NCBI RefSeq assembly: GCF_035917675.1
Contig: NZ_CP109104.1
Location: forward strand, 8,494,001 to 8,558,000
Direction: 5' to 3'
Length of the DNA: 64,000 nt
Source: Streptomyces sp. NBC_01775
GTDB lineage: Bacteria; Actinomycetota; Actinomycetes; Streptomycetales; Streptomycetaceae
Shown here: in pieces, positions 2,051 to 17,499 of the stretch
How the letters are laid out: each line of letters opens with the position of its first letter
How positions within the stretch are numbered: the stretch's first letter is position 1
Notes under the pieces: model-generated
Seen by the model: the letters and a program-made list of their open reading frames with translations, nothing else
Told to the model about the DNA's origin: nothing
Database searches by the model: none
Made by a program: the position numbers and the translations under genes

Positions 2051-3054
2051 GCGGAGGCCTCGGTGGTGGGTACGGACCCGCCGGGGACGGCCGGGGTGCC
2101 GGGCAGGGCGGTGCGCGCCGGGCGTTCGGCGAGAACGTCCAGGATGTTGTCGACGGCCAGGTCGACCATGGCGGCACGGGTGCTCTCGGTGGCCGAGCCG
2201 ATGTGCGGCAGCGTGACGATGTTCTCCTCCGCCACCAGCGGGGACAACGCCGCCCCCATCGGCTCGCGCTCGTACACGTCGAGACCCGCGGAATGTATCC
2301 GCCCCTCGCGTACGGCACGGAGCAGGGCATCCTCGTCCACGACGCCGCCGCGGGAGGTGCTGACCAGCGTGGAGGTGGGCTTCATCGCGGCGAGTTCACG
2401 CTCCGAGACGAGGTGCCGGGTCTCGTCGGTGAGCGGCACGTGGAGCGACACGATGTCGGACTCGGCCAGCAGCGACTCCCACCCCACCGCCGTCGACAGG
2501 GAGTCCTCGCCCGCGTACGGGTCATGGTGGAGCACCCGCATGCCGAAGCCCTGGGCGCGGCGCGCGACGGCGCGGCCGATCTGCCCGTAGCCCACGAGGC
2601 CGAGCGTGGCGCCGTGGATGTCCAGGCCGAGGTAGTCGCGCATCCGGAACAGGTCCCAGCCGCCTCCCGCCAGGCGGGCACCCGCAGCGCCCAGTCGGCG
2701 CCGGGCGGCGAGGATCAAGGCGAAGGTGAGGTCGGCGGTGGTCTCGGCGAGCACCCCCGGTGTGTGGGTGGCGACGACGCCCCGCTCGGCCGCCGCGGCG
2801 ACGTCGACGTTGTCATGCCCCATGCTGGCCAGGGCCACGACGCGCAGGGACGGGCCCGCGGCGTCCAGCAGCGCCGCGTCCACGGCGTCGTTGCCCAGCG
2901 CCAGGACGGCGCTCGCCCCCGGCGCGAGGGCGGCCAGCTCCGCCGGGCCCGGCTTGCCGCTGCCCGGCCAGGCCACCAGCTCGGCCGCCGCGGAAAGGCG
3001 CTCCAGGCCGCGTCCGGGAAGATCTTCTCGGGTAACGAGAACACGCTTTTTCAA
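2047..3054 (-). CDS. D-isomer-specific 2-hydroxyacid dehydrogenase (2-ketogluconate/hydroxypyruvate reductase type)
   Basis: This is a roughly 335-residue NAD(P)-dependent reductase of 2-keto acids. It has the nucleotide-binding motif LVGYGQIGRAVARR, the catalytic arginine in STSRGGVVDEDAL and the catalytic histidine in LPHIGSATEST. I chose the TTG at 3054 because a GGAG lies six bases upstream and the product then begins with a family-like KKRVLVTREDLPG. An ATG at 3081 is the alternative. It heads the idnO-idnD group. With gluconate kinase and permease genes 9 kb away, reduction of 2-ketogluconate is a natural guess, but glyoxylate or hydroxypyruvate cannot be excluded. Confidence 0.78.
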   Translation of the reverse strand: MKKRVLVTREDLPGRGLERLSAAAELVAWPGSGKPGPAELAALAPGASAVLALGNDAVDAALLDAAGPSLRVVALASMGHDNVDVAAAAERGVVATHTPGVLAETTADLTFALILAARRRLGAAGARLAGGGWDLFRMRDYLGLDIHGATLGLVGYGQIGRAVARRAQGFGMRVLHHDPYAGEDSLSTAVGWESLLAESDIVSLHVPLTDETRHLVSERELAAMKPTSTLVSTSRGGVVDEDALLRAVREGRIHSAGLDVYEREPMGAALSPLVAEENIVTLPHIGSATESTRAAMVDLAVDNILDVLAERPARTALPGTPAVPGGSVPTTEASA

Positions 3055-3158: not shown

Positions 3159-4103
3159 CTATCGCGAATTCGTATCCGCCCCGGCTTCCCTGTTCTCCTC
3201 GGATTCCTCGAAGGCGGCGATCAGCTCCAGGAAGACGTCCTGCACCGCGAGCGCCGGTTCGGAAAGGGGCTGATTGTCCGAGGTGACCAGGGACAGCTTG
3301 ACCTCGATGACGGGTCGCACGATGCGGCGGACCTCCAGCGCCTGGACGTCCAGGATCGCCCTCGCGGCGGACCACGGCAGCACGGTGGCACCGAGCCCGG
3401 CGTCCACGGCATGGACGAGCGTGAGCGCCGATTCCACCTCACCGACCACCCGGGGGCGCAGCGATGCCTGCTGGAAGGCGGCGTCCACCAGCTGGCGGAT
3501 CGTGTGGATGCGGCTGGGCAGCAGGAGGGGCACATCGGCGAGTTCGTCGAGGCTCACGTCCCCCTCGCCCCGCGGATCTTGTCCGTCGGCGGTGCGGATC
3601 AGGAAGAGGTCCTCCGTGCGCAGCGGCTCGAACTGCACTCCCCGCAGCGGACCGGCGCCGTAGATGAAGGCCATGTCCATGCGGCCGGTCATGATCGCCT
3701 CGCTGATCACCCCGCCGAAGTTCTCGTTGACGTGCAGCAGGATGTCCGGGTAGCGCTCGCGCACGGTCCGCAGCAGCGGAAGGCCCAGGGCCGCGCCCAG
3801 GCTGTACGGGGCGAGCCCCACCGACACGCTTCCTGCCGGCGCCTGCCCCGAGACGTCGACGGCGGCGTGTGCGAGATCGACCTGCCGGAGGATCAGCTGG
3901 GCGTGCTGGTACAGCGTCCGTCCCGCCTCGGTCGGGACGACCCCGCGCTTGCTGCGGATGAGCAGCTGTTGCCCGAACTGGGTCTCCAGGGAGGATAGGT
4001 GCTGGCTCAGCGCGGGTTGCGCGATGTGCAGGATGTCGGCCGCACGCGTGATGCTCCCCGCATCGACGATCTTGATGAAGGAGTAGAGACGCCTGGTGTC
4101 CAT
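3159..4103 (-). CDS. LysR-family transcriptional regulator
   Basis: This is a 314-residue regulator. A winged helix-turn-helix occupies residues 1-60 (SITRAADILHIAQPALSQHL), followed by a linker helix and a periplasmic-binding-like effector domain. The sequence is close to the Nac/CynR-like branch. It is divergent from the pxpABC operon (355 bp apart) and, on the same strand, 104 bp upstream of the ketogluconate genes, so it could control either side. The divergent placement and the dyads between 4270 and 4346 favour the pxp operon. The effector is unknown; a substituted pyroglutamate or its keto acid would fit. Confidence 0.85.
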   Translation of the reverse strand: MDTRRLYSFIKIVDAGSITRAADILHIAQPALSQHLSSLETQFGQQLLIRSKRGVVPTEAGRTLYQHAQLILRQVDLAHAAVDVSGQAPAGSVSVGLAPYSLGAALGLPLLRTVRERYPDILLHVNENFGGVISEAIMTGRMDMAFIYGAGPLRGVQFEPLRTEDLFLIRTADGQDPRGEGDVSLDELADVPLLLPSRIHTIRQLVDAAFQQASLRPRVVGEVESALTLVHAVDAGLGATVLPWSAARAILDVQALEVRRIVRPVIEVKLSLVTSDNQPLSEPALAVQDVFLELIAAFEESEENREAGADTNSR

Positions 4104-4269: not shown

Positions 4270-4346
4270 CTCCGGAACACGCGAACCGGAGAATCTCTGC
4301 GGAGCAGTTCCGCGAAGAATCCGCGGAGCCGTTCCGCGAAGAATGC
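4270..4346. promoter_or_regulatory. tandem dyads in the LysR-pxpA divergent region
   Basis: The 354-bp gap 4104-4457 holds no gene. It contains a dyad CTCCGG (4270-4275) / CCGGAG (4286-4291). Next come two near-identical 24-bp units (4299-4322 and 4323-4346), each holding GCGGA-N5-TCCGC. The units start 24 bp apart, a little over two helical turns, as expected for cooperative repressor or LysR binding. An alternative is an attenuator hairpin in the pxpA leader. No promoter hexamers were convincing. Confidence 0.5.
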
Positions 4347-15252: not shown

Positions 15253-15526
15253 CGCTGCCCCTTTCCCCGGCTCCCGAGCTGCCTCCTCTCGCCACGGTGG
15301 CGTACCCGGGGCGTCCTCGCCCGCCGTACCGTGCCGACGCCGAAGCGGTAGCGGAGGTGGAGCCGGCGCCCGCCGGCGGTCCACGCGTCCCACGTGAGGG
15401 GTGCGGACGCGCTGGTCTGTACGACGCGGGCGAGGCGCAAGACGGGTTCCTCCGGTGCTGTGCGACGTAAATCCGGGTGCGCCCGGGAGCAATGCGTCCT
15501 ACGGTGGGGCACAGCCCAGGTGCGAA

Positions 15527-15632
15527 GGCAGTGGTTACTTCCCTCTTAAGGACGGGGTTGCGGGTTCGAGTCCCGTCATCGGCTTCGAGCCGGTGTAGCT
15601 CAATTGGCAGAGCACGTTATGGCACCACAGCC
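15527..15632 (+). other. complementary flanks enclosing the permuted tRNA
   Basis: GGCAGTGGT (15527-15535) is complementary to ACCACAGCC (15624-15632) apart from one A/A mismatch, so the sequences outside the two tRNA halves can form a helix across the break in the anticodon stem. TACTT and TATGGC lie unpaired between this helix and the tRNA. GGCAGTG can alternatively pair with CACAGCC at 15510-15516, giving a competing hairpin. Confidence 0.55.
15541..15617 (+). tRNA. candidate circularly permuted tRNA-Lys(CTT) gene
   Basis: The 3' half comes first: CC plus the anticodon loop CTCTTAA (15543-15549, anticodon CTT), stem strand GGACG, variable loop GGGTT, T-arm with loop TTCGAGT, acceptor strand CATCGGC (15577-15583) and T84-like discriminator. 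After TCGA the 5' half follows: GCCGGTG (15589-15595), TA, D-arm GCTC/GAGC, A26 and CGT. GCCGGTG pairs with CATCGGC along all seven positions (one G-U). Joining the outer ends restores the anticodon stem CGTCC/GGACG, giving a complete cloverleaf. No normal-order partner half exists on either side. Discriminator U is unusual for tRNA-Lys, so charging and function are open. Confidence 0.75.
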
Positions 15633-15708
15633 GACCAGGATCTCTGGGCTTTCTCCCTTCTCCATTCCCTCTTCCCCCGCGCTCCCCGCTTCCGGGGTTT
15701 CCGCCGCC

Positions 15709-17422: not shown

Positions 17423-17499
17423 TGGTAGCGGGGACAGGATTTGAACCTGCGACCTCTGGGTTATGAGCCCAGCGAGCTACCGAGCTGCTCCACCCCGCG
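17423..17499 (-). tRNA. initiator tRNA-Met (CAT)
   Basis: Read on the minus strand, the 77-base gene folds as a cloverleaf with an encoded CCA. The anticodon loop CTCATAA sits on a stem with three consecutive G-C pairs (GGG/CCC). The acceptor starts with an unpaired C1 opposite T72. Both features mark bacterial initiator tRNAs. A strong hairpin follows immediately. Confidence 0.96.

Follow-up and report, generated by a model that had tools for sequence, protein, structure and literature searches.

A stretch of 64,000 nucleotides from Streptomyces sp. NBC_01775 (the window) encodes what is very probably a YrlA-like Y RNA, with a terminal stem that would be held by the Ro60-type protein Rsr and a head predicted to mimic a complete, circularly permuted tRNA including its anticodon arm. 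The tRNA halves are swapped, the helices covary, relatives and phages repeatedly carry the RNA next to TROVE genes, and U33 and A38 are kept in the loop. The features of a Y RNA are present: permuted D, T and acceptor arms, and a long covarying terminal stem that joins the 5' and 3' ends. The original prediction was a circularly permuted tRNA-Lys gene, with a tRNA mimic as the fallback; of the two it is the fallback that fits best.

Direct inspection of the sequence confirmed the swapped tRNA halves at 15527-15632, with the 3' half upstream of the 5' half as in permuted tRNA genes. The acceptor strands pair over seven positions as predicted, GCCGGTG (15589-15595) with CATCGGC (15577-15583), one of the pairs being G-U. 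The anticodon stem of five perfect pairs is also present, CGT (15615-15617) and CC (15541-15542) together pairing with GGACG (15550-15554), and the anticodon-type loop CTCTTAA occupies 15543-15549. The flanks GGCAGTGGT (15527-15535) and ACCACAGCC (15624-15632) were predicted to pair across the break and do so, with 8 pairs around an A-A mismatch. Their interpretation as a permuted precursor is not supported; they belong to a terminal stem that is conserved in an RNA whose occurrence follows that of Ro60 genes. The RNA is larger than 15527-15632, since an outer stem (15514-15519/15644-15649) is added for a total of 136 nt, with the ends at 15514 and 15649 placed by conservation (Table 1). ARAGORN made no tRNA call over 15527-15632. 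An ordinary tRNA-Met(CAT) gene lies about 1.8 kb from the RNA, at 17423-17499 on the minus strand.

Table 1. Elements of the 136-nt RNA and its predicted promoter, in window positions
Feature	Position	Strand	Basis or remark
Predicted -10 promoter element TACGGT	15500..15505	+	8 nt before inferred RNA 5' end
Whole Y RNA-like transcript, 136 nt	15514..15649	+	Full-length match to model R2
Outer terminal stem, 5' strand, pairs with 15644-15649	15514..15519	+	
Single-stranded conserved GUGCGAA, candidate Rsr-binding motif	15520..15526	+	
Inner terminal stem, 5' strand GGCAGUGGU, pairs with 15624-15632	15527..15535	+	
Anticodon hairpin UCC-CUCUUAA-GGA, tRNA 29-41	15540..15552	+	
tRNA 42-43 (CG), pairs with 15615-15616	15553..15554	+	
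T arm GCGGGUUCGAGUCCCGU	15560..15576	+	Rfam match, covariation alignment
Acceptor helix, 7 pairs, closing loop UUCGA	15577..15595	+	
D arm GCUC-AAUUGGCA-GAGC	15598..15613	+	
tRNA 27-28 (CG), lower anticodon stem	15615..15616	+	55-sequence alignment
Inner terminal stem, 3' strand ACCACAGCC	15624..15632	+	55-sequence alignment
Outer terminal stem, 3' strand CUGGGC	15644..15649	+	55-sequence alignment

The Rfam YrlA model matches 15552-15621, covering the T arm, acceptor and D arm, with 39.1 bits (E 2.4e-6 for a search of 3.5 kb). Because this is under the RF02553 gathering score of 69 bits, the RNA is labelled YrlA-like and not a member of that family; in the 10 loci scanned with Rfam every YrlA match was below 69 bits, the best having 44.1. 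A covariance model of 23 relatives, from which the window and L005 were excluded (R2), matched the window RNA over all 137 model positions with 122 bits (E 1.6e-28, roughly calibrated), and the next-best match across the 64 kb had 20.1 bits. Minimum-energy folding was rejected as support: the fold of 15511-15662 has no extra stability over shuffles (z -0.68), and the best ViennaRNA fold of the 136 nt, at -52.4 kcal/mol versus -41.7 for the consensus structure, pairs the anticodon region differently from the consensus.

The consensus, read from 25 type A sequences, is a nested structure of 36 pairs made up of an outer and an inner terminal stem, the anticodon hairpin, the lower part of the anticodon stem and the T, acceptor and D arms. 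A BLAST search with the window, followed by a pattern, supplied these sequences (alignment A3). The 37 pattern hits were called as 24 of type A by presence of the loop and 13 of type B by its absence, one B-called hit with the loop CTCAAAA (L006) being shifted to type A; the loop letters in A3 are therefore selected. In the MAFFT alignment of the 25 sequences 97.7% of cells are paired and 15 of the 36 pairs are doubly changed, a result as high in none of 500 shuffles. A second covariance model, R1, trained on A3, gave 127 matches in 83 sources, a figure that includes type B and short forms and counts at least three places twice (L032/L127, where there are two RNAs, and L067/L118). The matches of at least 104.6 bits in 59 of the 83 sources, 55 in number and all of the genus, were aligned to the A3-derived structure with the window included (alignment A5). 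Here 97.4% of cells are paired, double changes affect 26 of the 36 pairs, and the double-change cells number 178 against a shuffled mean of 28.

Pairing per helix in the 55 sequences ranges from 89.9 to 100% of cells. The outer terminal stem (6 pairs, 4 with double changes), the anticodon hairpin (3 of 3), the pairs 15553-15554/15615-15616 (2 of 2) and the D arm (4 pairs, 2 with double changes) are all 100% paired, and the acceptor helix (6 of 7) 99.7%. The inner terminal stem has 9 pairs, 7 of them with double changes, and gives the value of 89.9%; in 42 of the 55 sequences no pair forms at its mismatch position. Columns 7-11 of the alignment, in the GUGCGAA region, are invariant. In a cross-genus set of 24 sequences (A6), taken from 20 chosen sources and comprising phages (CELFI fell below the cut-off), a plasmid and the genus, 97.3% of cells are paired versus 34-44% when slid, and 30 of the 36 pairs are doubly changed, including all three of the anticodon hairpin (98.6% paired). 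The check proposed with the original prediction, a search in relatives for compensatory changes in the acceptor, anticodon and flanking helices, was thus strongly positive. The window itself has a compensated variant of the anticodon arm, with CG/CG at 27-28/42-43 and UCC/GGA at 29-31 and their partners, where most relatives have CC/GG and CCA/UGG; U 15617 could take the place of U 15540 in the hairpin.

Upstream of the RNA, TANNNT is found at a distance of 6-9 nt in 49 of the 55 sequences, the window counted. All 49 have CAG at letters 4-6 of the RNA, while the other six have CCG and no TANNNT. A second block, conserved by eye, lies at 15467-15483, about 30 nt before the -10 box; in type A relatives it reads about TAATTCG-N-TCGCC with the same spacing.

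The loop carries the general marks of an anticodon loop and leaves the decoding letters free. In A5, U33 and A38 are found in all 55 sequences, C32 in 54, A37 in 48 and U36 in 43, and the loop has seven bases in 54 sequences and six in one. Positions 34 and 35 are the 10th and 6th most variable of the 62 unpaired columns. Across similar bodies the letters 34-36 read CTT, GTT, CAT, GAT, CCT, TTT and others, with less variation at 36 than at 34-35. Viral anticodon arms have U33 in 19 of 19 and A38 in 16 of 19 cases. According to section 4.1 of PMC9654439, U36, A37 and A38 in a loop without C33 are the determinant of t6A37. The window loop CUCUUAA carries these letters, and U36A37A38 is found in 39 of the 55 sequences, the window counted; t6A37 modification is predicted from the sequence for the RNAs that have it. 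An explanation by t6A alone was rejected. Among the solo copies U36A37A38 is kept in the window, L110 and L111 and is missing from L101-L108 (for example CTGTCAA, CTCTCAA, CTGTAAA), and because of this absence only the general loop features are claimed.

The distribution of the RNA follows that of Ro60. Of 150 genomes of the genus (own genome counted), 81 have a TROVE match, and a full-length RNA match scoring 63.8 bits or more is present, among the matches listed, in 74. On the same matches listed, 73 genomes have both, one has the RNA only, eight have TROVE only and 68 have neither (Fisher p 2.5e-32). In the genome with the RNA only (G125), an rsr-like fragment adjoins the RNA (tblastn, 35% over 119 positions). 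For the eight of the 81 TROVE genomes with no strong RNA match, weaker matches were found in five rsr loci, one at E 0.0064 only, and at E 0.01 none was found around the TROVE genes of G038, G041 and G147 (L091, L092, L097). The TROVE genes of these three genomes are about 52-55% identical to the rsr of our strain. Within the 116 full-length RNA matches listed, 98 lie at most 3 kb from a TROVE match (median 1,114 nt) and 18 lie further away. The window copy belongs to the latter and is solo, with rsr about 325 kb away.

The own genome, of 9.3 Mb, has a single TROVE match (C1:8184744), the rsr gene at 721-2313 of locus L002 (TROVE, 55.7 bits). Its 530-aa product has relatives of solved structure in the TROVE proteins 9l5y and 9kop and, less close (E 2.6e-5), in PDB 2nvo, "Ro sixty-related protein, RSR", which we take to be the protein from D. 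radiodurans; in the best 120 of 6317 relatives the closest named ones are from Streptomyces. Two further Y RNA-like matches are found in this genome, one directly upstream of rsr (L002 432-542, C1:8183675, 39.3 bits) and one at L090 1236-1394 (C1:8364235, 53.4 bits), so that the three copies are spread across about 325 kb. The strong relatives fall mainly into type A, which has a loop of the kind CTNNTAA, and type B, which has none; the two often lie about 240 bp apart near a TROVE gene. With a 181-base query, matches were obtained in 134 of the 150 genomes, many of the weak ones being tandem-tRNA-like. Some rsr loci also contain short RNAs of 66-73 nt (for example L098 1565-1630, L126 2037-2104, L022 1409-1481). 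They have the terminal-stem motif, are too short for a tRNA head and perhaps form a third class of Y RNA. Human Ro60 is a lupus autoantigen, which makes the Ro60 system of wider interest. Lupus is also mentioned in PMC8394870.

The 5' part of the type A pattern, loop included, was found in Streptomyces and Kitasatospora records (at least 80 loci). BLAST gave 44 phage and 50 plasmid records, from which eight phage and two plasmid hits were inspected. Full-length model matches were obtained in the Gordonia phages GMA2, Trax and Cashline, the Microbacterium phages Magritte, SM23 and FuzzBuster, Rhodococcus phage Weasels2 and Mycobacterium phage CELFI, and two more on a Rhodococcus plasmid with a TROVE gene adjoining. 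A Priestia plasmid locus resembles tRNA genes by eye. The RNA adjoins an annotated "Ro-like RNA binding protein" in Trax, Cashline, Magritte and FuzzBuster; the SM23 locus has an annotated "RNA-binding protein", and GMA2 ORF59 matches Ro by tblastn. The stretches of CELFI and Weasels2 examined gave no Ro match by tblastn. In GMA2 (L160) the Y RNA lies inside a tRNA cluster, flanked by an Rfam tmRNA (3564-3975, 94.6 bits, overlapping ORF58) and a Pistol ribozyme (4285-4341, 56.8 bits), both over their cut-offs and both missing from the feature table.

IMG/VR was searched with a pattern that required no anticodon arm. The loci so found, at least 80, were filtered with R1, leaving at least 39 matches, of which at least 29 are non-tandem and at least 105 nt long; loci judged tandem (L303, L321, L322, L329, L330, L340, L364) were dropped. 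All five anticodon-stem pairs and a seven-base loop are present in at least 19 matches in 16 loci, with 12 pair combinations, in a set that includes near copies (L302, L343). At least 12 of these 16 loci have a Ro-like gene in the stretch examined. Parts of such RNAs can be mislabelled as tRNA genes, which is a hazard for annotation: GenBank has a tRNA-Arg(tct) over 3984-4060 of the Magritte locus (L161) and a tRNA-Asn over 2975-3041 of the SM23 locus (L162), and ARAGORN calls some viral copies as tRNA-Lys, -Asn, -Ser, -Arg or -Thr. A phylum-wide scan with R1 gave matches at E <= 0.001 in 217 of 396 genomes. Occurrence across the phylum is not claimed from this: outside the genus no match among those listed exceeded 51.6 bits, and four of the five loci checked with ARAGORN (L071, L072, L074, L075, L077) lay on tRNA genes. 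At L072, from another family of the class (G198), a full-length match of 50.6 bits at 1501-1626 on the minus strand has no ARAGORN tRNA and is a candidate Y RNA outside the genus, judged by its sequence.

The RNA would be transcribed as one molecule from the TACGGT box and bound by the Rsr ring at the terminal stem, around GGUGCGAAG. The head would take on the L shape of tRNA, the terminal stem branching off the anticodon stem at about 28/29. As in RYPER, it could offer a docking site on Rsr to proteins able to recognise tRNA or structured RNA, such as PNPase and tRNA-modifying enzymes. The RNA would act whole: with every pair nested and a short loop capping the acceptor stem, nothing needs to be cut or joined. 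Its anticodon arm probably renders the mimic adequate for proteins that grip the loop without reading 34-35. Docking of PNPase and modification by TruB and DusA are described for the studied Y RNAs in PMC8394870, which also reports D in the D arm and pseudouridine in the T arm of YrlA. Counting against the YrlA-like reading are the Rfam score under the cut-off, the solo position of the window copy in a genome whose rsr has another Y RNA-like match just upstream, the three TROVE loci in which no RNA match was found, and the predicted folding energy. The role of the tRNA-like head becomes directly testable by mutation of one loop.

An ordinary Y RNA whose hairpin is only a structural spacer at a three-way junction, and resembles an anticodon loop without functional meaning, is the less favoured but still quite possible alternative. 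Y RNAs with no loop do occur beside rsr, among them 12 of the 37 pattern hits and the short forms. The fixed U33 and A38, in all 55 sequences, together with the variable 34-35, among the 10 most variable of the 62 unpaired columns, are however what recognition of an anticodon loop would predict; the seven-base loop in 54 sequences and the retention of the hairpin with different stems in phages and a plasmid also speak against a spacer. A decoy function, in which the loop of phage and host absorbs tRNA-cutting enzymes or toxins and 34-36 follow the enzymes met, is rather doubtful. Its appeal is that phages encode the loop-bearing form, that 34-36 vary, and that the authors of PMC7790460 suggest that the uncut YrlA head may competitively inhibit an anticodon nuclease. 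That suggestion concerns Salmonella YrlA, which in the passages concerned is described without an anticodon arm; the variability also fits a lack of constraint, and the link to nucleases is a hypothesis. The broader idea that actinobacteria and their phages share Ro60-bound whole-tRNA mimics, as t6A37-modified baits and Ro-anchored anti-nuclease decoys with 34-36 diversifying with the attacker, is offered as speculation.

A true permuted tRNA gene is very unlikely; its precursor would have to be cleaved at the junction, closed into a circle and then opened at the acceptor end, yielding a decoding tRNA-Lys(CUU). The layout agrees with that of red algal and archaeal genes, where 1-74 bp intervene (PMC3978253), and the anticodon stem of five pairs is perfect. 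Against this, positions 34-35, and 36 to a lesser degree, vary among relatives so that no single decoding identity is kept; the terminal stem is conserved with covariation, unlike a discarded leader and trailer; and the genome has ordinary tRNA-Lys genes (CTT in L138 and L153, TTT in L133). For these reasons, and with an occurrence that follows Ro60 genes, the original claim of a gene for a working tRNA-Lys finds no support. By inspection there is also no bulge-helix-bulge at the junction, where the linkers of the window are 4 and 7 nt. The halves can hardly be the remains of ordinary tRNAs that have decayed, such as a tandem pair read out of register, since the helices covary. Tandem tRNA-Asn(GTT) genes do match the model in part (58-65 bits, positions 28-105) and are a source of false matches to the permuted head, but they have no terminal stem, whereas the window matches all 137 positions and its relatives keep the helices. 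The 28-105 matches were all excluded from the RNA counts; the three loci checked (L068-L070) proved to be such tandem genes, 4-5 nt apart. Among the tRNAs compared from the own genome, those closest to the reordered halves are tRNA-Trp (81% identical) and tRNA-Asn (79%), and none stands out as a parent. A single tRNA parent was rejected for the 55 sequences as well: the best match is tRNA-Lys(ctt) in 27 and Met, Val, His or others elsewhere, in a comparison that covered the tRNAs in 30 of the 60 own tRNA places. Tandem tRNA-Asn genes are a plausible route by which a permuted tRNA mimic could arise.

The YrlA-like Y RNA has counterparts among several known systems. Red and green algae and archaea have permuted tRNA genes in which the 3' half is likewise first, with a short spacer between the acceptor strands (PMC3978253); these genes yield a joined, decoding tRNA, whereas the present family has a variable anticodon and a conserved terminal stem. 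Two-piece tmRNA is also a tRNA-like RNA of bacteria with a permuted gene order (PMC3978253). In the Rfam scan of the window RNA, tmRNA was absent among the matches listed, a list that omits one match of lower score from the tRNA/tmRNA clan. To our knowledge, tmRNA has no anticodon arm of the tRNA type.

The system of Deinococcus radiodurans is similar in having a Ro60-type protein with a Y RNA as tether, in RYPER (PMC8394870, PMC7790460). It differs in that tethering of PNPase in the Streptomyces system would follow by analogy, and in that the own Rsr is only distantly related to 2nvo. YrlA (RF02553; Salmonella, PDB 6CU1) is described as mimicking tRNA through D, T and acceptor arms, which sit on a stem that binds Rsr, and as belonging with PNPase to RYPER (PMC8394870). 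Like the window RNA it has a terminal stem that bears a permuted head of T arm, capped acceptor helix and D arm, and the Ro60 gene is co-encoded in some bacteria (PMC11472068, PMC8394870). The original prediction knew of no bacterial permuted tRNA with this design, a view that has to be revised, since in three dimensions YrlA matches a circularly permuted tRNA (PMC11472068). The permutation is thus known; the covarying five-pair anticodon stem with its loop is new as far as could be checked, which covered the Rfam YrlA model, the YrlA descriptions cited here, and the titles and abstract openings of the Y RNA literature listed, where no Y RNA with an anticodon arm is named. In the Rfam YrlA structure the terminal stem leads through a 3-nt linker into a 4-pair helix, and no hairpin intervenes ahead of the T arm, while the window RNA has its anticodon hairpin there. 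The tRNA mimicry of Ro60 partners is in this way extended from three arms to all four, in actinophages and in a genus that includes laboratory strains.
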